Source: Bacteroidetes bacterium RIFCSPLOWO2_12_FULL_35_15 (GTDB lineage: Bacteria; Bacteroidota; Bacteroidia; 2-12-FULL-35-15). Taken from it: a DNA stretch of 64,000 bases. Made by a program: the position numbers and the translations under genes. Below the pieces are notes generated by a model, which was not told the DNA's origin, did no database searches, and saw only the letters and a list, made by a program, of their open reading frames with translations. Each line of letters begins with the position of its first letter. The stretch's first letter is position 1. The DNA lies in assembly GCA_001769385.1 (NCBI GenBank), contig MEPB01000060.1, positions 1-64,000 of the forward strand, written 5' to 3'. This document shows, piece by piece, positions 6,110 through 64,000 of this stretch.

Positions 6110-7900
6110 ATGAGCATTACACGAACGTTTGATCTGCTTCAACAATATAAGGAAAAGTATTTTCAGAAAGAAGATGCACTTACCGGAAAAGTAAATGGAC
6201 AATGGGTGAAATATAGTTCTGCCGATTACATCAATAATTCGAATTATATCAGTTACGGTCTTTTGGCTTTAGGAATAAAAAAAGGAGATAAGATAGCAAC
6301 CATTTCTAACAATCGTCCCGAATGGAATTTTGTAGATATGGGACTGGCACAGACCGGAGCAATTCATGTTCCGGTTTTTACATCGCTGGATAAGGAAGGG
6401 TATAAAACTATTTTTACCCATGCTGAAGTAAAATTTGTTTTTGTCTCAGATAGATCATTAGCTACTAAATTAAGTTCATTGCTTGATGAAATTGCTACAC
6501 TCGAAAAAATATATTTATTTGATGAGGTTCCCGGAATAGCCAATTGGAAAGAGATCCTGGAACTTGGAAAACAAAATGAAAATAAATTTAAAACTGAACT
6601 TGAAAAAATAAAATCAGAAATCAAGGCAACAGATGCAGTTACTTTAATTTATACTTCCGGAACAACAGGTAATTCGAAAGGTGTAGTATTATCACATCAG
6701 AATTTAATTTCAAATGCAAAAGCTGCTGCTGCTGTTTTTCAGCTTCAGCCACACCATCGCTACTTGAGTATTTTACCTATTTGTCATGTTGGTGAACGGA
6801 TGGGAAATTACCAGTCGCAATATTCAGGTTGTAGTATTTATTATGCCGAGAGTTTAGGTTCCATCGGTGCTGATCTGATGGATGTAAAACCACATGGTTT
6901 TGGCGCTGTTCCGAGGATCCTGGAAAAAGTGTATGATAAGATTATCGATAAAGGAGAAAAGTTAACAGGGATAAAACGTAGAATATTTTTCTGGGCGATC
7001 AATATTGGTTTGCAGTACAAAGCCAATGGCGAGAACGGAATAGGATATGAATTAAAATTAAAATTGGCAAATAAAATTGTGTTCAGCAAGTGGAGAGAAG
7101 CAATGGGCGGAAATATAATTTCCATTGGTGTTGGAGGCGCAGCATTGCAACCAAGACTGGAACGTGTGTTTTGGGCAGCAGGAATAAAATTGTTGAACAT
7201 GTATGGCTTAACGGAAACATCACCCATTATTACTATTAACAGAGCTACATCACCCTTATTAAAATTGGGAACAGTTGGAGCAGTGATCGATAATGTAGAA
7301 TTAAAAATTGCTGCCGATGGTGAAATACTTTGTAAAGGAAACAATGTGATGATCGGTTATTACAAAGATGAGGAAGCTACAAAATTATCCATCGATAAAG
7401 ATGGGTGGTTTTATACCGGTGATATTGGTATTTTAGAAGAAGGAAAGTTTTTAAGGATCACAGATAGAAAAAAAGAACTGTTCAAACTTTCAAATGGGAA
7501 ATACGTTTCCCCCCAGGGAATAGAAAATCTATTTAAAGAATCTGTTTTTATTGATCAACTGATGGTGATTGGAGAAGGAGAAAAATTTACAAGCGCTATT
7601 ATTTCCCCCGAATTTGATTCATTGAAAAAATGGTGCAGAGATAAAAAGATAGATGTTTCGAATAAAGAAGAAATAATTAAAAATCCTGAAGTGATCGCTC
7701 ATTACAATTCTATCGTAGCCGGTTTTAATAAGTCATTGGGTAGCGATGAAAAAGTAAAAAGAGTACGGCTTGTAAGTGATATGTGGACACCTGATTCAGG
7801 TGAATTGTCTCCTACACTTAAATTAAAACGAAGAATAATAATGCAAAAATATAAATCCATTGTTGATGAAATATTTTCACATAATGAGGTAATGATATAG
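6110..7900 (+). CDS. Long-chain fatty acid-CoA ligase (AMP-forming)
   Basis: The 596-residue enzyme activates fatty acids through an acyl-adenylate. Motifs appear in order: P-loop-like YTSGTTGNSKGV near residue 182, MYGLTETSP near 362, GWFYTGDIG near 434 with the ribose-binding aspartate, the hinge ITDRKKELFKLSNGKYV near 452, and a C-terminal LSPTLKLKRR. The K in SNGKYVSP marks the long-chain (FadD15/FACL) group, which lacks the PTGK lysine of other ligases. It follows the lipid A acyltransferase gene. It also serves as an in-window reference for the degenerate ligase-like protein at 59642-60172. Confidence 0.92.
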   Translation: MSITRTFDLLQQYKEKYFQKEDALTGKVNGQWVKYSSADYINNSNYISYGLLALGIKKGDKIATISNNRPEWNFVDMGLAQTGAIHVPVFTSLDKEGYKTIFTHAEVKFVFVSDRSLATKLSSLLDEIATLEKIYLFDEVPGIANWKEILELGKQNENKFKTELEKIKSEIKATDAVTLIYTSGTTGNSKGVVLSHQNLISNAKAAAAVFQLQPHHRYLSILPICHVGERMGNYQSQYSGCSIYYAESLGSIGADLMDVKPHGFGAVPRILEKVYDKIIDKGEKLTGIKRRIFFWAINIGLQYKANGENGIGYELKLKLANKIVFSKWREAMGGNIISIGVGGAALQPRLERVFWAAGIKLLNMYGLTETSPIITINRATSPLLKLGTVGAVIDNVELKIAADGEILCKGNNVMIGYYKDEEATKLSIDKDGWFYTGDIGILEEGKFLRITDRKKELFKLSNGKYVSPQGIENLFKESVFIDQLMVIGEGEKFTSAIISPEFDSLKKWCRDKKIDVSNKEEIIKNPEVIAHYNSIVAGFNKSLGSDEKVKRVRLVSDMWTPDSGELSPTLKLKRRIIMQKYKSIVDEIFSHNEVMI

Positions 7901-12623: not shown

Positions 12624-12698
12624 GTCATTTCGACCACAGGGAGAAATCTCGTTTTTTTTTTAACATTATTAAGATTCCTCCACTGTGGTCGGAATGAC
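12624..12698. repeat. Hairpin repeat, family A, copy 1
   Basis: GTCATTTCGACCACAGGGAG on the left pairs imperfectly with the GGTCGGAATGAC end on the right around a T-rich loop. The same repeat family occurs at 38533-38605 and 52597-52671. It lies between lpxA and the ABC ATPase gene and could act as a transcript end or processing site. Confidence 0.75.
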
Positions 12699-25257: not shown

Positions 25258-25573
25258 TCCTTTTTGTAACTATTTTATCTATATCCGTTCTCCGTTTTTT
25301 CTAAAGCCCCCACAACTCAAAGCGTGTGGTCATGTTGTTTTGTCGAAATACATCCATTGGCCTTCTGCACCATTAATAAATACAGTGTGACTTATACCAT
25401 TTACCAGTATAAACTAGTCCAATTTAAATTGCCTCGCTCGTTTCTCGACTCCCCTCGAAATGACACCAGCGCTGTCATTTCGAGCATTCTGCGTTGAAGC
25501 AGACACATCGAGATTGTGTTGGGCTAAATTTCGGAAATAATATATTTAGAATTGGTATTAATCACCTTTTATT
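25258..25573. repeat. Gene-free repeat region after aroA
   Basis: No gene is seen. 25436-25520 holds a hairpin repeat: CTCGAAATGACA and TGTCATTTCGAG around a short CCAGCGC-type loop, then CATTCTGCGTTGAAGCAGAC, related in inverted form to 18580-18601. Similar CTCGAAATGAC stems occur at 59491-59544. Confidence 0.6.
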
Positions 25574-38532: not shown

Positions 38533-38605
38533 GTCATTTCGACCGTAGGGAGAAATCTCGTTTAATGGCAAGTCTATTGAGATTTCTCCCTGCGGTCGAA
38601 ATGAC
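38533..38605. repeat. Hairpin repeat, family A, copy 2
   Basis: GTCATTTCGACCGTAGGGAG on the left and its near-perfect complement ending GGTCGAAATGAC on the right. Close copies are at 12624-12698 and 52597-52671. It lies 10 bases after the hemW stop. Confidence 0.8.
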
Positions 38606-52596: not shown

Positions 52597-52671
52597 GTCA
52601 TTTCGACCGTAGGGAGAAATCTCTTTTAATAATGACATTTTCATGAGATTTCTCCCTACGGTCGAAATGAC
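52597..52671. repeat. Hairpin repeat, family A, copy 3, inside the aromatic gene run
   Basis: GTCATTTCGACCGTAGGGAG and CTCCCTACGGTCGAAATGAC form long, almost perfect arms around a TTTTAATAATGAC-type loop. It lies between the thiolase and had genes, so it may reduce or process the transcript between them. Confidence 0.8.
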
Positions 52672-54041: not shown

Positions 54042-54830
54042 TCAAATTGTCTTTACTTTCATTTCAGATTCAGCATGTTTTTTTGCAAGTAGTGCTGCAC
54101 CGAATGAATTGATCATCTGCGGATTTTCAGGAACAACAACCCGTTGTTTAAATTTTTCTTCCACAATAGTTTTTAAAAAAGGATGATATTGAATTACGCC
54201 ACCAATTAAAAATATGGGTAAGGTTTTATCCATTCTGATTTTAGCAATTCGATTTACGATAGAAATATAAATACCTCTCGCCAGATCATGTTCAGGAACT
54301 TCATCAAAGATCCATTTCATTATTTCTGTTTTCGCAAATACTGTACAGAAACTATTTAATTCTTTATCAAAATCAGACTTTGCAGCAAGTTCGCTTAAAC
54401 GTGACAATGGAAGTTCTGCACGTTCAGCAATTTCGATTATAAATGTTCCGGTTCCGGCAGCACATTTGGTATTCATATAAAAATCATCCACCTTACTATC
54501 TGCATCGCTTTTGATCACTTTAATATCTTCACCACCAATATCAATGATTGTTTTTACTTCGGGATAAAGTGCCGAAACACCAACAGAAGCGCAATATATT
54601 TCTGTTTTGTTTATATGAGAATCTTTAAAATGTTCGCGTCCATAACCCGTTGCACAAACAGAAACAATATTAAATTGTGATTTTATTTTTGTTAAGATAT
54701 TTGCAAGCTCTTGTTTATCGCGATTGAGTGTTTTTACAATGTTCTGATAACAGATACGATCATCTTCATCAATCACTGTTAGCTTAGTGTATGACGAACC
54801 TATATCGACTCCCTGGTAATAGTTATTCAT
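54042..54830 (-). CDS. HgdC/BcrD-like activator ATPase (third copy in the cluster)
   Basis: The 262-residue protein belongs to the BcrA/BcrD/HgdC ATPase family (actin fold, [4Fe-4S] between subunits). GVDIGSSYTKLTVID near residue 7 is the phosphate motif, TIIDIGGEDIKVI near 94 the second, and the cluster cysteines are C123 in TKCAAGTGTF and C162 in SFCTVFAKTEI. It is distinct from BcrA and BcrD in the same window and shorter than BcrD. It is downstream of the ketopantoate reductase-like gene and the BcrB/HgdB-like gene (55971-57191), so it is probably their dedicated ATP-driven electron donor. Confidence 0.82.
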   Translation of the reverse strand: MNNYYQGVDIGSSYTKLTVIDEDDRICYQNIVKTLNRDKQELANILTKIKSQFNIVSVCATGYGREHFKDSHINKTEIYCASVGVSALYPEVKTIIDIGGEDIKVIKSDADSKVDDFYMNTKCAAGTGTFIIEIAERAELPLSRLSELAAKSDFDKELNSFCTVFAKTEIMKWIFDEVPEHDLARGIYISIVNRIAKIRMDKTLPIFLIGGVIQYHPFLKTIVEEKFKQRVVVPENPQMINSFGAALLAKKHAESEMKVKTI

Positions 54831-54978
54831 TTATTGAAAACCTTCCTCTTCCTTGTTTGACCTCACCCCAACTCCTCTCCAAAGAAGAGGGGAGAAGTGT
54901 GTGAAGTATATTATTTATTTACGTCTCTCACCTGCTGCCCCTCTTTTTACGGAGAGTGGATTAAGGGCTGAGTTATAT
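54831..54978. repeat. Repeat between two cluster genes
   Basis: CTCACCCCAACTCCTCTCC and GAAGAGGGGAGAAG make a partial hairpin. The sequence is a dispersed repeat rather than a gene. Confidence 0.45.
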
Positions 54979-55965
54979 TTACAATATTACTTCCGGATCA
55001 ACTTTTTGATGTTTGTTGACCTCTTTATTTTTTGATGTTGCAGCTTTTACAAGATTGGTAAAAGTTAAATTTAAAGGAGTACGCACATAATGCTTTCTTC
55101 CATATTCAACAATTTTACCATTAAAAAAATCTATTTCTGTTTCTCTTTTATTTAAAAAGTCAACTGCTAATGAAGGGAAGTGGTCGCCACCTTTTTTCAA
55201 ATAACGAAGACAAATCTTCACAAAATTATCGCAAAACTTTATATCCTCTTTGCGCGCTACTTCAACCGCTTCAATAATTGTTTGTTCTACAATTTCTATT
55301 GTATCCAAATTATTCATCGCTTCCCGCATTGTTAATTTAGAGATGGCACATAATGGACTAAGAGCAGCATTTAAAATTGTTTTTTCCCAGATCTTCTGGA
55401 TCATTTCGAAGGAGGTAGATGTTTCTGTTTTCAAGGAAACGCTTGTAAGAATATCAGCACACCACTTCGCTAATTCTTCTTTGGAATCATCCATAGAAGC
55501 AATATAATTTGGCGGATTAAAGAAAGTAACATTCACAGCATTTGGTGCATGTAAATTTCCTGCAAAATTTAAAACCATCCGAAGTGTACGCGATTCACCA
55601 ATTACATCAGAATATTTATTTTCAATATCAATTCCGTTCTGAGCACTTATTGCGCAAATTTTTCCATCATCCAATGCTTTGAATTCTTCCAGAATAAAAT
55701 CTGTATGTGTTGATTTGATACAAAAGAAAATCATATCCAGATCCAGAGGAGCAAATTCAGAAATCGAAGTAAAAGCATTGTTGAAGAACATGCTTTTTTT
55801 GATCACCCCCTCTAACTTCACACCTTCTCTCCGAATCAAAACCATCTTGTCTTTATCGTTATCACATACAGCAACTTCACATCCTGCTTCTTTAAAATGA
55901 ACAGCAAGTGTTTGCCCGATTGGTCCCATCCCTACAATACCAATTTTATATTTTTTCGCGTTCAT
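54979..55965 (-). CDS. Ketopantoate reductase-family dehydrogenase, divergent
   Basis: The 328-residue protein shows the Rossmann motif GIVGMGPIGQTLA near residue 9, the conserved asparagine in SAQNGI near 110, the catalytic-lysine segment WEKTILNAALSPL near 192 and the C-terminal RETEIDFFNGKI with the glutamate near 288. The second asparagine of the Kxxx-N-xxx-N pattern is a serine, so ketopantoate is not assured as substrate. The gene lies five bases after 55971-57191. Candidate roles are an R-2-hydroxyacid dehydrogenase feeding the neighbouring dehydratase-like protein, or the missing 3-hydroxypimeloyl-CoA dehydrogenase of the pathway. Both are inference. Confidence 0.72.
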   Translation of the reverse strand: MNAKKYKIGIVGMGPIGQTLAVHFKEAGCEVAVCDNDKDKMVLIRREGVKLEGVIKKSMFFNNAFTSISEFAPLDLDMIFFCIKSTHTDFILEEFKALDDGKICAISAQNGIDIENKYSDVIGESRTLRMVLNFAGNLHAPNAVNVTFFNPPNYIASMDDSKEELAKWCADILTSVSLKTETSTSFEMIQKIWEKTILNAALSPLCAISKLTMREAMNNLDTIEIVEQTIIEAVEVARKEDIKFCDNFVKICLRYLKKGGDHFPSLAVDFLNKRETEIDFFNGKIVEYGRKHYVRTPLNLTFTNLVKAATSKNKEVNKHQKVDPEVIL

Positions 55966-55970
55966 AATTT

Positions 55971-57191
55971 CTATGATAATTGTTCGATGAATGTTTCAAT
56001 TTTTGTTGTTGTTTGTCCTTCAGAATAAAAACGCAGATCACACAAATCGCCTTCTATCACCAATGTTTCGATGCCCAATTCATTTTTTAATCTTAATGGC
56101 ATTCCGAATCTCGAATTAGAATTACTGAAACATGTTTTTGCTTCATGAAAAATCATTCCTCCAATATTGAAATCTTTAATTAAACCTTTCAATATTTTTT
56201 CTTTGGCTCGTTCACTGCGATTGATAAAGATCTCTGTGTATGCTAATGCACTTGACTCAAATGGATCTTTGGGATCAAAGGCGTCAAACACCCAGCTGTT
56301 GCAGTAAGTAGAGGCTACGACTGCCGCATTATTTGCAGCAAATAATTCCGACATCGGACGAAGTTTCCCCCAGATAGGCATTCCATCCCAATAGATACGG
56401 CACTTCTCCACTTCTAAAAAGCCAATTCCTTTTGTTACGTTATCTTCTAATTCTTTTAATAGAGTTGTATAATAATCCTTTGCCATTTGTGTTCCGCGTA
56501 AAACAACGATTGGTCCCATGTGAATGGTGGCATCAAAAAAGCTAATCGGAGAAGGTGATACGCGGGCTGTCCATAATACTTTTTTCCAAAGATCAGTTGC
56601 TTCCTTACTTAATCGAAGTGTTTCGCGAAATTTATCAATATCAAATTTTTGTCCGCTTGCTTTTTCACAAATCGGAATCAATGCTTTAAATTGTGCCGCA
56701 ACATTTTCGATGGCTTCATTTGAAACTTCATCTACATAACGTGGTGGCTCAATCCCAAACACAGGGCAATTTTTTTCTTTTGCAAAATACTCAAACCAAT
56801 CTTGCACCTCACGACACTGATTGGTATTATAAACGATCAAATCCGGTTTGGGTGGGCCTTCCAAGCCATAATGTTCAGTTAATGGAGTTTGTTTTTTTAA
56901 GTAGGATCCAACATCAGCAGTTAGATACGAACAAATTTCACTTGAATAACCAAGCTTTGTGGCTTCAGGAATAAGGTCTGTTGCTGTGCGTGTTGCACCT
57001 AATAATGCTCCATGATTTTCCGGAAAGTGAACTTCAAACCCAAAGGAACGAAGTAATTCAGCAGGCCCAACACTTGTACACCAGGCCATCTTTTTTGTGG
57101 TGTCTTTCATCCCAAGAAAATAATTTCCCATTATTTCCTTCATTATTTTTGCGGATTGTATTTTATAAGGTTTTTTAATTTCTTGTTCCAT
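55971..57191 (-). CDS. BcrB/HgdB-like 2-hydroxyacyl-CoA dehydratase family protein
   Basis: The 406-residue protein has the family fold: AWCTSVGPAELLRSFGFEV near residue 36, HGALLGATRTATDLIP near 60, SEICSYLTADVG near 84, YNTNQCREVQDWF near 121, MGPIVVLRGT near 225 and EAKTCFSNSNSRFG near 350. Cysteines 87, 126 and 354 occupy the positions of the conserved cluster ligands in BcrB (for example SYTGCFTF and IKSCNSFS of the partial bcrB here). C38 is an extra. No BcrC/HgdA-like partner is adjacent, so it may act as a homodimer, as double-cubane proteins do, or with BcrC. The substrate is not known. Confidence 0.8.
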   Translation of the reverse strand: MEQEIKKPYKIQSAKIMKEIMGNYFLGMKDTTKKMAWCTSVGPAELLRSFGFEVHFPENHGALLGATRTATDLIPEATKLGYSSEICSYLTADVGSYLKKQTPLTEHYGLEGPPKPDLIVYNTNQCREVQDWFEYFAKEKNCPVFGIEPPRYVDEVSNEAIENVAAQFKALIPICEKASGQKFDIDKFRETLRLSKEATDLWKKVLWTARVSPSPISFFDATIHMGPIVVLRGTQMAKDYYTTLLKELEDNVTKGIGFLEVEKCRIYWDGMPIWGKLRPMSELFAANNAAVVASTYCNSWVFDAFDPKDPFESSALAYTEIFINRSERAKEKILKGLIKDFNIGGMIFHEAKTCFSNSNSRFGMPLRLKNELGIETLVIEGDLCDLRFYSEGQTTTKIETFIEQLS

Positions 57192-57285: not shown

Positions 57286-59412
57286 TCATATCTTTATTCG
57301 TGCATCCACAACAAAAGCTTTATCTTCAAATGCCATGATCGGATTCAAGTCCATTTCTTCGATCATTGGCAGATCACTTACTAATTGTGATAATCGCTGA
57401 ATGATTTCTATTACACTCGCTTTATGAATAGCTTTTTCACCACGCACACCATCCAATAATTTTGCTGCTTTTATTTTTGTAAGCATTTCGGTTGCTTCCA
57501 CCTCAGTAACCGGTGCAATTTTAAATACCACATCTTTCAACACCTCCACATAAATTCCACCAATACCAAACATTATTAAATGACCTAAGTCTTTTTTTGC
57601 ACTCACTCCTGCAATTAATTCTCTTCCACCGGGAAGAAATTTTTGGATAAAGAATTTCAGATCAGGTGCATTGAATTTAGTTTTCATCTTTTCTATCACG
57701 ACACGCACCTCTTCTGCATTCTTCAAATTGATAGCTACTCCGCCCAGATCACTTTTATGAACCAATGATTCAGCATCTGCTTTTACAACAACGGGGAAAC
57801 CTATTTCAGAAGCGGCTTTCATGGCATCATCCGCTGAACTTGCTATGCGCCAATCAGCAACCGGAATTCCATATTGAGCCAACAACTTATATACTTGTGA
57901 AGAAGAAAGAAAAGATTTTCCTTCTTTTTTTGCTTCATTAATAATAGCAAGGGCATTTTCTTTTTTTACATCAGCAAAAATTTTTGCTTCACCAATATTC
58001 CTCGTACTAACCTGGTGATATTTATACAATGCACCAAGCGCTTTTGCTGCTGTTGTTGGGAAAGCATAACAAGGAACACCACCATCTTTCATAATCTTTG
58101 TTGTTACCTGATAACGTTCCATACTCAGGTTGGTCATAAAATTACAGACGATAGGCTTCTTTTTCATCTTGTTCACTTCCACAATTTGTCGTGCTACTTC
58201 ATCCGTATCCGTAAAAGGTGCGGTGACAAAATTTATATAGATCGAATCAATATTTTCTTCATTCATCAATACATCTAAGGCACTTCTGAAATGTTGTCCG
58301 CCACCTGTTGCAACTACATCTATTGGATTATTGATACTAGCTTCAGGCAGCATGGTTGCTTTTAAAATTTCTTTTGCTTTTTCAGAAAGTTCCGGAAGTA
58401 CCATGCCTGCACTTACTAATTCATCTGTTGCGATAACTGCAGGACCGCCTGTATTAGTAATAATTCCAACTCTGTTTCCTTTTGGAATGGGTTGTGTTGC
58501 AAATGCCATGGATGTCTGGCACATTTCTTCCTCATTATTAAATGCAAGGATCCCAATTTTTTCAAAAATTAGTTCTGTTGCAATATCCACACCTGCAAGT
58601 GAACCTGTATGTGAGGCAGCTGCTTTTGCCCCTTCTTCGGTGCGTCCGGCTTTCATAGCAAGAATTGGTTTTTTCTTCGCCACTACTTTCGCCACATCCA
58701 TAAATTCTTTCGGATTAGAAAATCCTTCTGTATATAAAATGATGGCTTTTGTTCCTTCATCTTCACCATAATAATTTACTACATCAGGAATAGAAACATC
58801 GCATGCATTTCCGTTAGAAGCATACATGCGCATTCCAATATCAAGGTCAAATAAACTTTGCATAATGAATGCACCCACACCTCCGCTTAATGCAACAATA
58901 GATATAGAACCGGGTTTTGGAAATGTAAAAGTAAAATCACAATAGGCATTGTAATCAGGATCGCAATTAATAATTCCCTGGCAATTTGGTCCGAAGATCC
59001 GTACACCATATTCTTTTGCTTTTGCAAGAAATGCTTTTTGCAGAGCCATTCCTTCTTCACCCATTTCACTGAATCCGGCAGAATTGATGATCACAGATTT
59101 AATTCCTTTTTTTCCGCAATCTTCAATTATTTGTGGAACAAATTTGCTGGGGATAATAACATGTGCCGCATCAATATCATAAGGCACATCAAAAATTGTT
59201 GGATATGCTTTTATTCCTCTTATTTCCGGTTCTTTTGGGTTTATAGGATAGATAGGACCTTTATAACCAAAATGCACTAAGTTTTTTATGATCACATTTC
59301 CGATGGAAAGTTCTTTGGAGGAGGCGCCAATAATAGCAATTGATTTTGGCTTAAATAATGAATCCAATTCGTGAATTGATTTTTTTTCTTTTTGTTTTAC
59401 TTCTGCTTCCAT
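57286..59412 (-). CDS. ADP-forming acyl-CoA synthetase (fused alpha-beta)
   Basis: The start at 59412 (MEAEVKQKEKKSIHEL) gives 708 residues; an upstream ATG at 59436 adds eight. The protein makes a CoA thioester with ATP to ADP and phosphate, or the reverse. Order is alpha then beta: CoA-binding PKSIAIIGASS, ligase GPNCQGI, the phosphohistidine in KAAASHTGSLAG (about residue 268), then ATP-grasp VADWRIASSADDAMKAASEIGFPVVVKAD (split for length) and MFGIGGIYVEVLKD. The position next to bcr genes suggests activation of benzoate or another aromatic or alicyclic acid, or energy recovery from acyl-CoA products, but acetate is the default. Confidence 0.88.
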   Translation of the reverse strand: MEAEVKQKEKKSIHELDSLFKPKSIAIIGASSKELSIGNVIIKNLVHFGYKGPIYPINPKEPEIRGIKAYPTIFDVPYDIDAAHVIIPSKFVPQIIEDCGKKGIKSVIINSAGFSEMGEEGMALQKAFLAKAKEYGVRIFGPNCQGIINCDPDYNAYCDFTFTFPKPGSISIVALSGGVGAFIMQSLFDLDIGMRMYASNGNACDVSIPDVVNYYGEDEGTKAIILYTEGFSNPKEFMDVAKVVAKKKPILAMKAGRTEEGAKAAASHTGSLAGVDIATELIFEKIGILAFNNEEEMCQTSMAFATQPIPKGNRVGIITNTGGPAVIATDELVSAGMVLPELSEKAKEILKATMLPEASINNPIDVVATGGGQHFRSALDVLMNEENIDSIYINFVTAPFTDTDEVARQIVEVNKMKKKPIVCNFMTNLSMERYQVTTKIMKDGGVPCYAFPTTAAKALGALYKYHQVSTRNIGEAKIFADVKKENALAIINEAKKEGKSFLSSSQVYKLLAQYGIPVADWRIASSADDAMKAASEIGFPVVVKADAESLVHKSDLGGVAINLKNAEEVRVVIEKMKTKFNAPDLKFFIQKFLPGGRELIAGVSAKKDLGHLIMFGIGGIYVEVLKDVVFKIAPVTEVEATEMLTKIKAAKLLDGVRGEKAIHKASVIEIIQRLSQLVSDLPMIEEMDLNPIMAFEDKAFVVDARIKI

Positions 59413-59490
59413 AATTTTTTCAAATTTTAATCCCAAGGGGACTTAATATTAGGCTTTATATAAGTTAATTCGTAACATGATCAACCGCAC

Positions 59491-59544
59491 TTTCTCGACA
59501 AGCTCGAAATGACTGCGCGTGGTCATTTCGAGCTTGTCGAGAAA
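59491..59544. repeat. Perfect 23-base hairpin repeat
   Basis: TTTCTCGACAAGCTCGAAAT plus GAC pairs with its exact complement across an eight-base TGCGCGTG loop. It stands between the 176-residue protein gene and the ADP-forming synthetase gene, both on the minus strand, with AT-rich flanks and no gene. Confidence 0.8.
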
Positions 59545-59641: not shown

Positions 59642-60172
59642 TTAAATTTCTACAATTAAAAAATTTTTAATTTTTGAAAATTTTTGTCCGATCAGGCAGT
59701 TAGCATCATTCAAACAGCCTGTTAAACATTTATTCAATTCGTCCATATCTCTTGGACAAAAACATCCGTCCAGTGGGGAAATGTTATACTCCGGACGTTC
59801 TAACTGGTGATTGGGAAATAGAAATGCAACAGGAGAATCCTCTCCTGCCCCAACCAGAATGGTTGAAGAAATATAATGACATTTACCCTCTATTAAGACC
59901 TTCATTTCTGAAGTGACCACCTGATCAGCAGTTGACAAAAATCCTGACTGTTTAATTTCATCAAGAACAAATTTTCCTGATTCAAATCTTCCGTACACAG
60001 AAGTACAAAACCATCCATCCGGTGTAAATGAATCTTTAGTCAGTTTTTGATCTTTATAAAAATCAAAAAAAGCGTCCGGCACTTTGACTTGTATTTCACC
60101 GTCATCAGCCAAACGCCCTTTTACGTTCTGAACTAAACTTCCTAACTGATTATTTTTTCCAAGAGTTTGCAT
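59642..60172 (-). CDS. Isolated C-terminal-like piece of an AMP-forming CoA ligase, catalytic residues lost
   Basis: The 176-residue protein aligns by eye with residues about 370-500 of the in-window ligase at 6110-7900: LGSLVQNVKGRLADDGEIQ, FFDFYKDQKLTKDSF and PDGWFCTSVYGRF correspond to LGTVG...ADGEI, IGYYKDEEATK and DGWFYTGDIG; ILVGAGEDSPVAFLFPN corresponds to VIGEGEKFTSAII. The adenylation domain is absent, the ribose-binding aspartate of TGD is lost (TSVY) and the hinge DRKKE is not kept. The end (CFCPRDMDELNKCLTGCLND) is cysteine-rich. The frame is intact, so it is not simple debris. It lies between bcrD and the ADP-forming synthetase. Binding of an acyl or adenylate ligand is possible. 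Confidence 0.6.
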   Translation of the reverse strand: MQTLGKNNQLGSLVQNVKGRLADDGEIQVKVPDAFFDFYKDQKLTKDSFTPDGWFCTSVYGRFESGKFVLDEIKQSGFLSTADQVVTSEMKVLIEGKCHYISSTILVGAGEDSPVAFLFPNHQLERPEYNISPLDGCFCPRDMDELNKCLTGCLNDANCLIGQKFSKIKNFLIVEI

Positions 60173-60321: not shown

Positions 60322-61161
60322 TTATACTGCTACCGCTTTCTTTTCTTTTAATTTCAGATGACGGAATCCACCCCAAAGTGCTGCTCCAATAGCTCCTGCA
60401 TAAATTGCATCCGGATGTGTTTTGATGATGAATTTTTTTCCTGTTTCAGCCAATTGTTCTTCAATTGCCTGCATCATTCCTTTGTTAAGTGCCATACCTC
60501 CTGTTAACATAATAGGAGATTCTCCTTTTAATGAACTGATCAATTTAATGATACGTCCTGCAATAGAGATATGAATTCCTTTAATAATATTCGGAGTAGT
60601 GATACCGCGGGACACCATATTGATAACATCTGTTTCAGCCAAAACAGCGCAAATGCCGGAAGAAACTTCAGGAGCCTGAGCTTGTAAAGAAACGTCACCA
60701 ACTTCTTCAATAGATAATCCAAGGTAACGTGAAATATTTTCAACAAACTGTCCGGAACCGGAAGCACATTGTCCCGTCATTTTATAATCCTGAACACGGG
60801 CATCTTCTGTGATTTTAACTGCACGTACAAATAATGCACCCATGTCCACTACTGTTTTTGTTTCAGGAAAAAAGAAGTTAGCTCCTTTGGCATGTGTTGT
60901 CATTCCATAGAAATGGCCACGCTTACGTTTCACCATATCGCCTTCACCTGTTGAAGCTAAATATGCAACTTCTTCATATTTTAAATTATGCTTTTCAAGC
61001 ATAGTGTTTATCATTTCATCCGCCAATTGTGTCGGATTACGTTTCCTGATCTTTTCGGTTTGTTTGTCAATTATTTTTGGGTTATTCGAATAATCGATCA
61101 GCACCAATTTTATAAAATTGCTACCTACATCAATCCCCATCGTATAAAATGAATTTTCCAT
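60322..61161 (-). CDS. bcrD: Benzoyl-CoA reductase subunit D (ATPase)
   Basis: The 279-residue length equals BcrD/BadG. MGIDVGSNFIKLVLIDY near residue 8 and TVVDMGALFVRAVK near 103 are the nucleotide motifs; cluster cysteines are C132 in TGQCASGSGQF and C171 in SGICAVLAETDVI, a spacing and sequence typical for BcrD rather than HgdC. With BcrA it forms the ATP-hydrolysing half that donates electrons to BcrBC. It follows bcrA after 90 bases that contain a perfect hairpin. Confidence 0.92.
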   Translation of the reverse strand: MENSFYTMGIDVGSNFIKLVLIDYSNNPKIIDKQTEKIRKRNPTQLADEMINTMLEKHNLKYEEVAYLASTGEGDMVKRKRGHFYGMTTHAKGANFFFPETKTVVDMGALFVRAVKITEDARVQDYKMTGQCASGSGQFVENISRYLGLSIEEVGDVSLQAQAPEVSSGICAVLAETDVINMVSRGITTPNIIKGIHISIAGRIIKLISSLKGESPIMLTGGMALNKGMMQAIEEQLAETGKKFIIKTHPDAIYAGAIGAALWGGFRHLKLKEKKAVAV

Positions 61162-61251: not shown

Positions 61252-62673
61252 TTAAGCGTTCTCTGCTGTTTTTTTAGCGGAAGGAAGATCTGCTTTGATG
61301 TTTCTTCTTGCGAACATTGCTCCACCTAAAGCGCCCATAAAAATTGAATCGGTATGGATATTGATTTTTATTTTATCACCATAATTTTCTTTTACTAATT
61401 GTCCTAGGTATTTAATTACTGCAGGATTTCTGGCAACACCACCGGTAAAAGTAAATTCGTTATAAACACCGCCTGAACGGGCAATTAAAGACATGGCGCG
61501 CATGATGATGGCTTTGTGTAAGCCACCCAAAATATCTTCACGTTTTTCACCAAGATTGGTTAATTCGCGTAATTCAGCCCCTGCAAATACCGTACAGGTA
61601 GAACAGATCGTTACTTCCTTTTCGGCTTTCATCGCCATTGGCCCTAGTTCATTTACAGTGATACTCATTTCGTCTGCAATGTATCCAAGGTAACGGCCAC
61701 AACCTGCCGCACAACGGTCATTCATCTGGAAGCTGGTTACCAAACCATATTTATCCACCTGGATCGCTTTTGTATCTTGTCCGCCAATATCCAGCACAGT
61801 ACGTGTTTCAGGGAAAATAGCATGTGCTCCGAAAGCATGACAAAGAATTTCAGAACGGATGCAATCCTGAGGGAAAGGTAATAATGCGCGACCATAACCG
61901 GTTCCGGTCATGTTAGCAATATTGAATTCAAGATCAGTTATTTCGTCAATGTGTGAACGAAGCGATTCAGAAACAGTATCGAAATTTCCTTTCAATAAAT
62001 TTAATTCCGCATCAAAGTTTACACTTTTTGAATCAGCTACAGAATCCGGTAAATTTTTATATTTTACTTCCAATTCTTCCATTGCTTTGTAAACAAGTTC
62101 CTTAAAGTTGAACTCGATGATCTGATTTTCTGCAGGGCTGATGCTCTTGTCCCAAACAATCATCAATGGCTCAAACAAAGCCATTCCCAATTTATTTACT
62201 TCTTCGTTGTATTGTTCAGAAACGATGTCGCGGAAGAATTGATTTTTAGCCCCAAGGTTATTATACAAATATTCGTGCTTGATCCTTGGTTTAAATGTTT
62301 TACGGATGGTACGTAAATGACCCAGGATTTCTTCCTGTTGTTTTGCATCCGTGAAAAAGGTTTTGCAGGTTTTCAATAATTCTTCACCTAGTCGATCCAG
62401 ACGAACTTTAAATTGCTCGTATTGAAAAACACTTTCTAAGTCGGTGATGTATTTTTTGTATTCCGGCTTTGCTTTAATCTCCTCTTCTAATTTTCGTTGT
62501 AAGATGGAAAAACGAGCGTTATAAATTGCTTCGTCACGTGCAATGTCAGCTGCAACGGAATAATTAGCACGCGTATTGGTAATTCCGCGCCCAATAATCT
62601 CATCCTTTTCATTGATGATTACCGCTTTTGATGTTGTTGAACCTAAGTCAACTCCAAGATAATATTTGTTCAT
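61252..62673 (-). CDS. bcrA: Benzoyl-CoA reductase subunit A (ATPase)
   Basis: The 473-residue protein is an actin-fold ATPase with a long insert (about residues 36-235) between the first and second motifs, as in BcrA/BadF of the Thauera type. YYLGVDLGSTTSKAVI near residue 4, TVLDIGGQDTKAI near 292 and the cluster cysteines C321 (NDRCAAGCGRYL) and C360 (ICSTCTVFAGAE) are present. The insert is somewhat longer than in the families I recall (total about 440). It follows bcrB after 27 bases. Confidence 0.94.
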   Translation of the reverse strand: MNKYYLGVDLGSTTSKAVIINEKDEIIGRGITNTRANYSVAADIARDEAIYNARFSILQRKLEEEIKAKPEYKKYITDLESVFQYEQFKVRLDRLGEELLKTCKTFFTDAKQQEEILGHLRTIRKTFKPRIKHEYLYNNLGAKNQFFRDIVSEQYNEEVNKLGMALFEPLMIVWDKSISPAENQIIEFNFKELVYKAMEELEVKYKNLPDSVADSKSVNFDAELNLLKGNFDTVSESLRSHIDEITDLEFNIANMTGTGYGRALLPFPQDCIRSEILCHAFGAHAIFPETRTVLDIGGQDTKAIQVDKYGLVTSFQMNDRCAAGCGRYLGYIADEMSITVNELGPMAMKAEKEVTICSTCTVFAGAELRELTNLGEKREDILGGLHKAIIMRAMSLIARSGGVYNEFTFTGGVARNPAVIKYLGQLVKENYGDKIKINIHTDSIFMGALGGAMFARRNIKADLPSAKKTAENA

Positions 62674-62700: not shown

Positions 62701-64000
62701 TTATTTTACAGCCTCTTCCTGCGCTAAAATTGTTTTGCGTTGCTCTAACATTTGGAAGTAAGACTCCAAACGGTTTTTAATATTCGCATACGAGAAATAA
62801 CGTGGGTCAACCAAGTCAGATTCAATAAATCCAACAGGAACACCGGTACGTTGTTCAATTTCACGCATGATCATCAATTGGCCTGCTGAGAAAGAGTTAC
62901 AGCTCTTGATGGAGTTAATCAAAAATCCATCTGCTTTGTATTCTCTCACATATTTTTCGATCAGATCAACACGTTGAGGCAAGTTCATATTTGTATAAAC
63001 ACTCATGCAATATTTTGCTAAACTTTCTAAGGGTTCAGAAGGATCGTGACGGAAACCAAGATCATAACAACCTCCAACTTTGGTATAAGTTGATGCAACA
63101 ATGATGGCACCCATATCATAAAATATTTTCCAGAATTCGCGGAAGTTGGTCCAGTTTGGAGGTCCTTCAATTACTAATCTGAAACGCTCTTCTTTCAATT
63201 CACCTTCAGGAGTGACAGGACCAAGTCCCAATCGCATACGCTCTTGCACCTCGTTCCATAATTCCTGATAATAAACTACTGCTTCTTTAGTTCCTCTGAA
63301 AGCCGTAAAAATCGGTCCGATGTAATAAACACCTGCAAAATAGGCATCAATAGGAGTCGGAACAGTTTTCGCGCTTTCTAAAATTTTCACTAACAGATCT
63401 TCTGCTTTAGCAGAATCAACCATCATATTCGAAAGACGTTTCATGTCAAACTTTTTGCCCGACACTTGTTCCATTTTAGGAATCACATCTTCCTGCAATT
63501 GTTTTACCATGTAGGTGATCTGGTCTTGTGTGATAACACCATCTTCCTGATAAGGCGTATGAAGCATGGCAACAGGAACGCCCGGATATAAACGTTCTAA
63601 ATTTTCGAACCATTTCAAAAATGTAAAACAACCGGTATAACTTAATAATAATAAATCAGGTGGTGGAAGTTGTTCACCTGTTGGCCCGATGTTGCCTTTC
63701 AGCATCATACCGATATCACATTTTACGTATGTACACACATCTTCAGAGAATCCAATCTTTTCAGCCTCCTTGATATACTCACCGGATTTTTTACGCATAC
63801 CGGATTGTAATGCATTGATCTCAGGATATACAGGCAACATATCAAAAGATAAGATCAATTCTGTAAGATTACCGGGAACAAATGTATATACTACCTTTTT
63901 TCCCAATTCTTTTGCCATACTTAATTCTTTGAATTGTTTGGAAAGCATTTCCTTTTGAAGGTTCATGCTTTTTTCTTTTATTGCTTCTACTGGTTCAGCC
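62701..64000 (-). CDS. bcrB: Benzoyl-CoA reductase subunit B (partial, runs off the right edge)
   Basis: The reading frame continues in phase past the ATG at 63966 to the last base, adding AEPVEAIKEKS before it, so the true start may be outside the window. Marks of BcrB/BadE are TFVPGNLTELILSFDM, PEINALQSGMRK, SEDVCTYVKCDIG, LLSYTGCFTFLKWF, GPPNWTNFREFWKIFYD and the C-terminal INSIKSCNSFSAGQLMIMRE. It forms with BcrC the benzoyl-CoA-binding half that holds the active-site [4Fe-4S] clusters. bcrC, first in the Thauera order C-B-A-D, is expected upstream, beyond base 64000. Confidence 0.94.
   Translation of the reverse strand, partial: AEPVEAIKEKSMNLQKEMLSKQFKELSMAKELGKKVVYTFVPGNLTELILSFDMLPVYPEINALQSGMRKKSGEYIKEAEKIGFSEDVCTYVKCDIGMMLKGNIGPTGEQLPPPDLLLLSYTGCFTFLKWFENLERLYPGVPVAMLHTPYQEDGVITQDQITYMVKQLQEDVIPKMEQVSGKKFDMKRLSNMMVDSAKAEDLLVKILESAKTVPTPIDAYFAGVYYIGPIFTAFRGTKEAVVYYQELWNEVQERMRLGLGPVTPEGELKEERFRLVIEGPPNWTNFREFWKIFYDMGAIIVASTYTKVGGCYDLGFRHDPSEPLESLAKYCMSVYTNMNLPQRVDLIEKYVREYKADGFLINSIKSCNSFSAGQLMIMREIEQRTGVPVGFIESDLVDPRYFSYANIKNRLESYFQMLEQRKTILAQEEAVK

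Follow-up and report, generated by a model that had tools for sequence, protein, structure and literature searches.

Aromatic-ring reduction in bcr operons is carried out by class I (ATP-dependent) benzoyl-CoA reductases, and the class I subunits BzdNO from Aromatoleum were found to hold [8Fe-9S] and [4Fe-4S] clusters when produced in Escherichia coli (PMC11971306). The AMP-forming acyl/aryl-CoA ligases of the ANL type (PF00501 with PF23562), among them 4-chlorobenzoate-CoA ligase, MatB and oxalyl-CoA synthetase, end in a described C-domain, and the ADP-forming acetyl/acyl-CoA synthetases (relatives of TIGR02717 and NF045493; PF13380, PF13607 and PF13549) are likewise known. So is domain atrophy, as in a phenylacetate-CoA ligase of Burkholderia that has lost 67 residues and is thought still to function in phenylacetate degradation (Genome Biol 2015, PMC4432964). 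Our literature search returned no paper on a ligase piece of the kind described below or on AMP-to-ADP replacement in bcr clusters, and no prior description of the Bacteroidota operons concerned. Here, using a window of 64,000 nucleotides (the whole stretch of DNA analysed) and comparison with relatives, we describe ORF176, a small protein encoded within a bcr cluster, and the exchange of enzymes that appears to have left it behind.

ORF176 sits between bcrD and the gene for an ADP-forming acyl-CoA synthetase, in the following neighbourhood.

62701..63966, minus strand: bcrB, benzoyl-CoA reductase subunit B (TIGR02260, 677 bits; cut-off 486.55)
61252..62673, minus strand: bcrA-like gene, benzoyl-CoA reductase subunit A (TIGR02259 is the best family, at 436.7 bits, below its cut-off of 578)
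60322..61161, minus strand: bcrD, benzoyl-CoA reductase subunit D, upstream neighbour of ORF176 (TIGR02261, 317 bits, above the cut-off of 312.85)
59642..60172, minus strand: ORF176, s-type, what remains, as a free-standing protein with an internal deletion, of a Cys4-type AMP-forming CoA ligase, as judged by comparison with relatives
57286..59436, minus strand: ADP-forming acyl-CoA synthetase (CoA_binding_2, Succ_CoA_lig and ATP-grasp_5; PF13380, PF13607 and PF13549 above cut-off), presumed, on grounds of co-occurrence, to have taken over the function of the lost ligase
55971..57191, minus strand: Hgd2, an extra HGD-D (2-hydroxyacyl-CoA dehydratase/BCR-type) subunit and constant neighbour (PF06050, 2e-61)
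54979..55965, minus strand: ketopantoate-reductase-like protein (PF02558 and PF08546)
54042..54830, minus strand: second activator ATPase of the BcrA/D family (PF01869, 9e-37; TIGR00241)

The same operon encodes Had (6-hydroxycyclohexenecarbonyl-CoA dehydrogenase, TIGR03201) and Oah (6-oxocyclohexenecarbonyl-CoA hydrolase, TIGR03200), both above curated cut-offs; with BcrB, BcrD, Had and Oah passing and BcrA below its own cut-off, the profiles assign the operon to the Bcr-type class I benzoyl-CoA reductases. The synthetase reaches no NCBIfam equivalog cut-off. The nearest solved relatives of Hgd2 are 3o3m, MbdO and BzdO, and the ketopantoate-reductase-like protein and the activator form one fused protein in most relatives. 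None of these three genes (54042-57191) has been assigned a step in the degradation of benzoyl-CoA. Between ORF176 and the synthetase lies a perfect inverted repeat (59491-59544; TTTCTCGACAAGCTCGAAATGAC / GTCATTTCGAGCTTGTCGAGAAA), the core of which, GTCATTTCGA, recurs near 12624, 25455-25474, 38533-38596 and 52597-52662 in the manner of a REP-like intergenic repeat. In several relatives (L029, L030 and L033), the bcr cluster is flanked by molybdenum-hydroxylase-like genes, of xanthine dehydrogenase or 4-hydroxybenzoyl-CoA reductase type by eye from their N-terminal sequence.

The gene for ORF176 is real: its 176 codons run from ATG to stop without interruption, as originally predicted, and its residues 5-120 align as claimed with the late part of the window's ligase at 6110-7900 (33% identity, E 4.8e-12). 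That ligase is nevertheless not the closest, the nearest ones belonging instead to a distinct lineage of full-length ANL ligases that occupy the bcr slot of relatives and share 40-51% identity over most of ORF176, which shows descent from the ANL fold. The late parts of NCBIfam CoA-ligase profiles match residues 6-120 weakly (best 3e-5), and a Pfam scan gave no family, only sub-threshold noise (Flavi_glycop_C, PAN_3 and WAP); ORF176 itself gives no hit to PF23562 (AMP-binding_C_3), whose gathering cut-off its full-length relatives pass. A plasmid search with ORF176 found only ordinary AMP-binding proteins, over residues 20-112. Foldseek on the predicted model ranked ANL enzymes at the top, with E values of 0.009 or worse, and VIA-align superposed model residues 14-76 on ANL enzymes weakly (Z 2.0-2.7). 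The protein can be divided as follows.

60122..60172, minus strand: residues 1-17, the ligase's original N-terminus, consensus M-x-x-x-x-S-x-x-x-LG-x-x-I-x-N-[IV] (ungapped score against ligase N-termini)
59945..60121, minus strand: residues 18-76, relic of the last adenylation-domain subdomain (A6-A7 region, TGD changed to TSV), faster evolving (alignment; weak structure match; dN/dS 0.24)
59645..59941, minus strand: residues 78-176, the Cys4 C-domain, a conserved unit common to full-length ligases and c-type proteins (alignment; dN/dS 0.031)
59873..59881, minus strand: C98-H99-Y100 motif, nearly invariant (C in 55, H in 54 and Y in 56 of 56 proteins)
59714..59764, minus strand: C137-x-C139-x9-C149-x3-C153 four-cysteine motif, invariant (56/56 at each cysteine)

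Relatives were gathered by searching relative, phylum, order and class genomes and fetching the regions, which gave 56 proteins including the window's own; the named relatives, located by their DNA, are metagenome-assembled genomes of uncultured Bacteroidetes. More than half of the proteins (31) derive from full-length AMP-forming CoA ligase genes in bcr operons, mostly of 558-614 residues; in relatives the ligase lies after bcrD, in the slot that ORF176 takes up in the window. Two of the 31 (G021 and G720) are fragments at contig edges; the remaining 29 are complete, and all 29 retain the P-loop, A5, TGD, A8 and A10 motifs, with A10 of G493 (LTPSIK) and A8 of G514 and G539 (RKDRIFK) confirmed by eye. 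Nine proteins, ORF176 included, are s-types of 173-188 residues that occupy the ligase slot, and 14 are c-types of 147-157 residues, encoded after hgd2 and wholly devoid of the N-half. There is one minimal form of 93 residues (G486, L119), directly upstream of the synthetase and with its upstream cysteine shifted (SHYVTC), and one intermediate (G460). Homologues of similar length thus accompany bcr genes elsewhere: outside the window, stand-alone proteins or a dead ligase occur in 24 genomes, 23 with truncated copies and one with a dead near-full-length copy, so that the copy in the window is not alone in its truncation.

In ORF176 the adenylation core with the P-loop (TSGTxGxPK) and A5 (GxTE), present in 29/29 complete full-length relatives, is deleted; the A7 TGD aspartate, kept in all of those relatives, is absent from the short forms (TSV, TNF or TGI; TSV in ORF176), the A8 hinge is degenerate and the chain stops before the A10 lysine. 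Lacking all five motifs, ORF176 presumably does not act as a ligase, and the missing motifs bear out its original description as a catalytically dead ligase piece. The accompanying statement that the adenylation domain, TGD and hinge are all gone is right for the core, the TGD and the A8 hinge, to which the A10 lysine can be added, but some 60 residues of the last N-domain subdomain (18-76) remain. Nor does a cysteine-rich tail replace the usual end, as had been supposed. The cysteine stretch lies inside the C-domain of the same-operon full-length ligases of relatives, with the terminal strand after it, and the end that was lost is the A10-lysine segment.

The C-x-C-x9-C-x3-C motif is invariant in 56/56 proteins and is found in the C-domain of the full-length ligases too, whereas ordinary FadD proteins in the alignment lack it. 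We define the Cys4 ligase C-domain as a family with this motif in its C-domain and a gene adjoining bcr genes, and ORF176 falls within it. Between the window and its closest relative, dN/dS is 0.088 over the whole ORF; the N-half has 0.24 and the Cys half 0.031, the latter being only a rough value because dS there is 2.2. Across s-type pairs, dN/dS is 0.08-0.15 for the whole ORF and 0.03-0.08 for the Cys half, with frames intact, and intact ligases likewise evolve more slowly in the C-domain (0.021 versus 0.089 in one pair). These substitution patterns indicate strong purifying selection on the Cys half and agree with the earlier view that the gene is retained rather than decaying. AlphaFold models of whole ORF176 and of the Cys4 half alone are of low confidence (pLDDT 62 and 46); in them a helix (143-154) follows the C-x-C loop and carries the last two cysteines, spaced by one turn, a predicted arrangement that would suit a metal site, and given this confidence we make no claim on metal geometry. 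The four cysteines probably bind metal, either zinc or an Fe-S cluster, and could alternatively be redox-active or structural.

The first 17 residues of the s-types (for example, MQYPESENKLGGAIQNV) match the N-termini of the ligases (MQYLRSEKDLGDVIPNI) with a mean ungapped score of 5.1, compared with -12.2 +/- 4.6 for column permutations, of which 0/2000 scored as high. The gene for ORF176 therefore still begins at the ligase's own start and has been shortened by about 345 codons without a change of frame. The alignment thus indicates an origin by in-frame internal deletion of the adenylation core, with loss of the A10 segment as well; where exactly the break fell is uncertain, since the residues at the junction also resemble the ligase stretch that precedes the retained part. 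In the tree, the s-types form one clade (100/99) within a clade of 26 that also contains ligases (100/99), and the c-types form a separate clade (95/98) outside the clade of 26. A single origin of both truncated shapes is disfavoured, marginally (p-AU 0.049, on 99 columns only), and two releases, one s-type and one c-type, are likely but not certain.

The state of the ligase tracks that of the synthetase. Genome-wide searches found a close homologue of the window's synthetase in 25 of 25 genomes with a truncated or dead form (G031 is counted as positive on a piece cut by a contig end), and no synthetase of the same subfamily at E<=1e-200 in any of the 31 genomes with a full-length ligase (Fisher p 2e-16, treating genomes as independent and ignoring kinship). 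On the BcrD tree there are at least nine state changes, and all five supported independent pairs agree (sign test p 0.06, the number of pairs being too small for 0.05 to be attainable); the modules have therefore been passed from one bcr background to another while the match of states was kept. Judged by these genomes, where the synthetase is present the ligase has been reduced to a piece or is dead. The dead form is that of G460 (INTERMEDIATE), a 522-residue ligase adjoining a synthetase 92-93% identical to the window's. Its P-loop has changed from TSGT to TFGT (serine to phenylalanine) and its A8 from RKDRIFK to RKESGLK, and the chain stops before the A10 lysine, ending NSFLIVEI where ORF176 ends KNFLIVEI. 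A state like that of G460 would be expected to precede the deletion, and the topology test permits a sister relationship between G460 and the s-types without proving it (p-AU 0.33 for the two grouped together). In another genome, G004 (L033, L121), the Cys4 gene has been retained though a rearrangement separated it from the synthetase. The bcr cluster of G004 is split between these two genes, and a break at the corresponding point seems to divide the ribosomal-protein operon, a pattern resembling that left by a chromosomal inversion or a misassembly.

The module also accompanies practically every benzoyl-CoA reductase sampled in the phylum. In a class sample of 395 genomes, BcrB occurs in 51, Hgd2 in 52 and the Cys4 module in 49; the module is present in 49 of the 51 BcrB-positive genomes, and in the other two (G504 and G691) a contig ends where the gene would lie. 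Both further BcrB-bearing operons seen in the phylum samples (G114 and G349) have it. G675 (L120) encodes an Hgd2-like protein, a ketopantoate-reductase-like protein, Had, Oah and a related synthetase (59% identity), with no BcrB match and no module. A partner specific to Hgd2 was rejected on this genome, in which an Hgd2-like protein lacks the module; the module therefore follows BcrB rather than Hgd2 alone, and this single contrast suggests that the tie is with the reductase itself and not with the pathway as a whole. G675 possibly has another type of ring reductase.

That anaerobic, ring-opening Bacteroidota have preserved a small part of the old enzyme as a separate gene, in every case next to the enzyme that reduces the ring and probably on more than one occasion, makes a second job very likely, and these patterns indicate that the displaced ligase had one, carried by the four cysteines. 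We propose, with belief and doubt in about equal measure, that a bifunctional AMP-forming CoA ligase once filled the bcr slot, that ORF176 is what survives of it, the Cys4 module, and that this protein is an accessory of the benzoyl-CoA pathway. The ancestral slot would have held a full-length, motif-intact ligase with the Cys4 module in its C-domain; an unrelated ADP-forming synthetase would then have displaced it, with the core and A10 segment lost and the start and Cys4 half retained. As an accessory, the Cys4 protein may be a subunit for docking or regulation that keeps the activating enzyme, the ligase in cis or the ADP-forming synthetase in trans, at the reductase, or, with less likelihood, an electron-transfer or cluster-handling factor. 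More tentative is a stronger version, in which the Cys4 protein would be a hitherto unrecognised metal-dependent component required by Bacteroidota benzoyl-CoA reductases that began as a second function in a CoA ligase and was released at least twice on displacement by the ADP-forming, energy-saving synthetase.

Other roles must be weighed against this accessory. A metallochaperone, cluster-assembly or electron-transfer protein for the operon's iron-sulfur enzymes (BcrBC and Hgd2) would explain why the module tracks BcrB and Hgd2 and why it bears four cysteines, and we consider it unlikely. To our knowledge, the Cys4 spacing corresponds to no known ferredoxin pattern, and a PDB sequence search with the Cys4 profile found no match. 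A class I reductase does carry [8Fe-9S] and aqua-[4Fe-4S] clusters, but BzdNO gained its clusters in E. coli, which makes a required dedicated assembly factor less likely (PMC11971306). That the protein is instead a dedicated subunit or partner needed by the synthetase, as a lid, tether or regulator, strikes us as rather improbable. Truncated forms do occur only in genomes with the synthetase, often directly upstream of its gene, but ligases of genomes without such a synthetase contain this module too, with its invariant cysteines, the related synthetase of G675 occurs with no module in the genome, and in the c-types hgd2 separates the two genes.

The original prediction of a sensor or binder of an acyl-CoA or aromatic acid drew on the ligase ancestry and the open frame, and is now very improbable: the acyl/AMP-binding pocket is deleted, neither the A8 hinge nor the A10 lysine is left, and the remaining N-half, which in the closest pair has a dN/dS about eight times that of the cysteine half, is dropped entirely by the c-types. 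Least credible of all is a decaying pseudogene, a ligase fossil disappearing after the synthetase took over. The missing adenylation core, the relaxed N-half (dN/dS about 0.24) and the dead intermediate G460 would fit such decay, but purifying selection on the Cys half of the s-types, four cysteines conserved throughout, open frames in nine s-type and 15 c-type or minimal copies, and the gene's persistence in G004 apart from the synthetase largely refute it.

From the intact ligase through a dead intermediate beside the newcomer to a stripped-down survivor, dozens of genomes together document the replacement of one enzyme by another with unusual completeness. The job of the Cys4 module, if found, could supply an element now lacking from our picture of how Bacteroidota reduce aromatic rings with ATP, and annotators gain a means to recognise a small gene unnamed by Pfam and NCBIfam. 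In the Pfam, NCBIfam, PDB and literature searched, we found no precedent for a Cys4 module that is part of a CoA ligase and persists as a separate gene once the ligase is gone.

Compared with the ANL ligases, ORF176 is homologous over residues 18-176 to their last N-subdomain and C-domain, and its full-length Cys4 relatives are complete ANL ligases; it differs in lacking the P-loop, A5, TGD, A8 and A10 and in having the Cys4 motif. As in the described domain atrophy (PMC4432964), an AMP-binding domain has lost core elements with function retained, but in ORF176 the whole catalytic core is gone and a different module survives. The neighbouring synthetase (57286-59436) belongs with the ADP-forming enzymes, whose fold and chemistry are unrelated to ORF176, and presumably replaces the lost ligase. 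With BcrB and BcrD above NCBIfam cut-offs and Had and Oah present, the operon resembles known Bcr-type class I operons, to which those of the Bacteroidota add the Cys4 module, Hgd2, the ketopantoate-reductase-like protein and a second activator.
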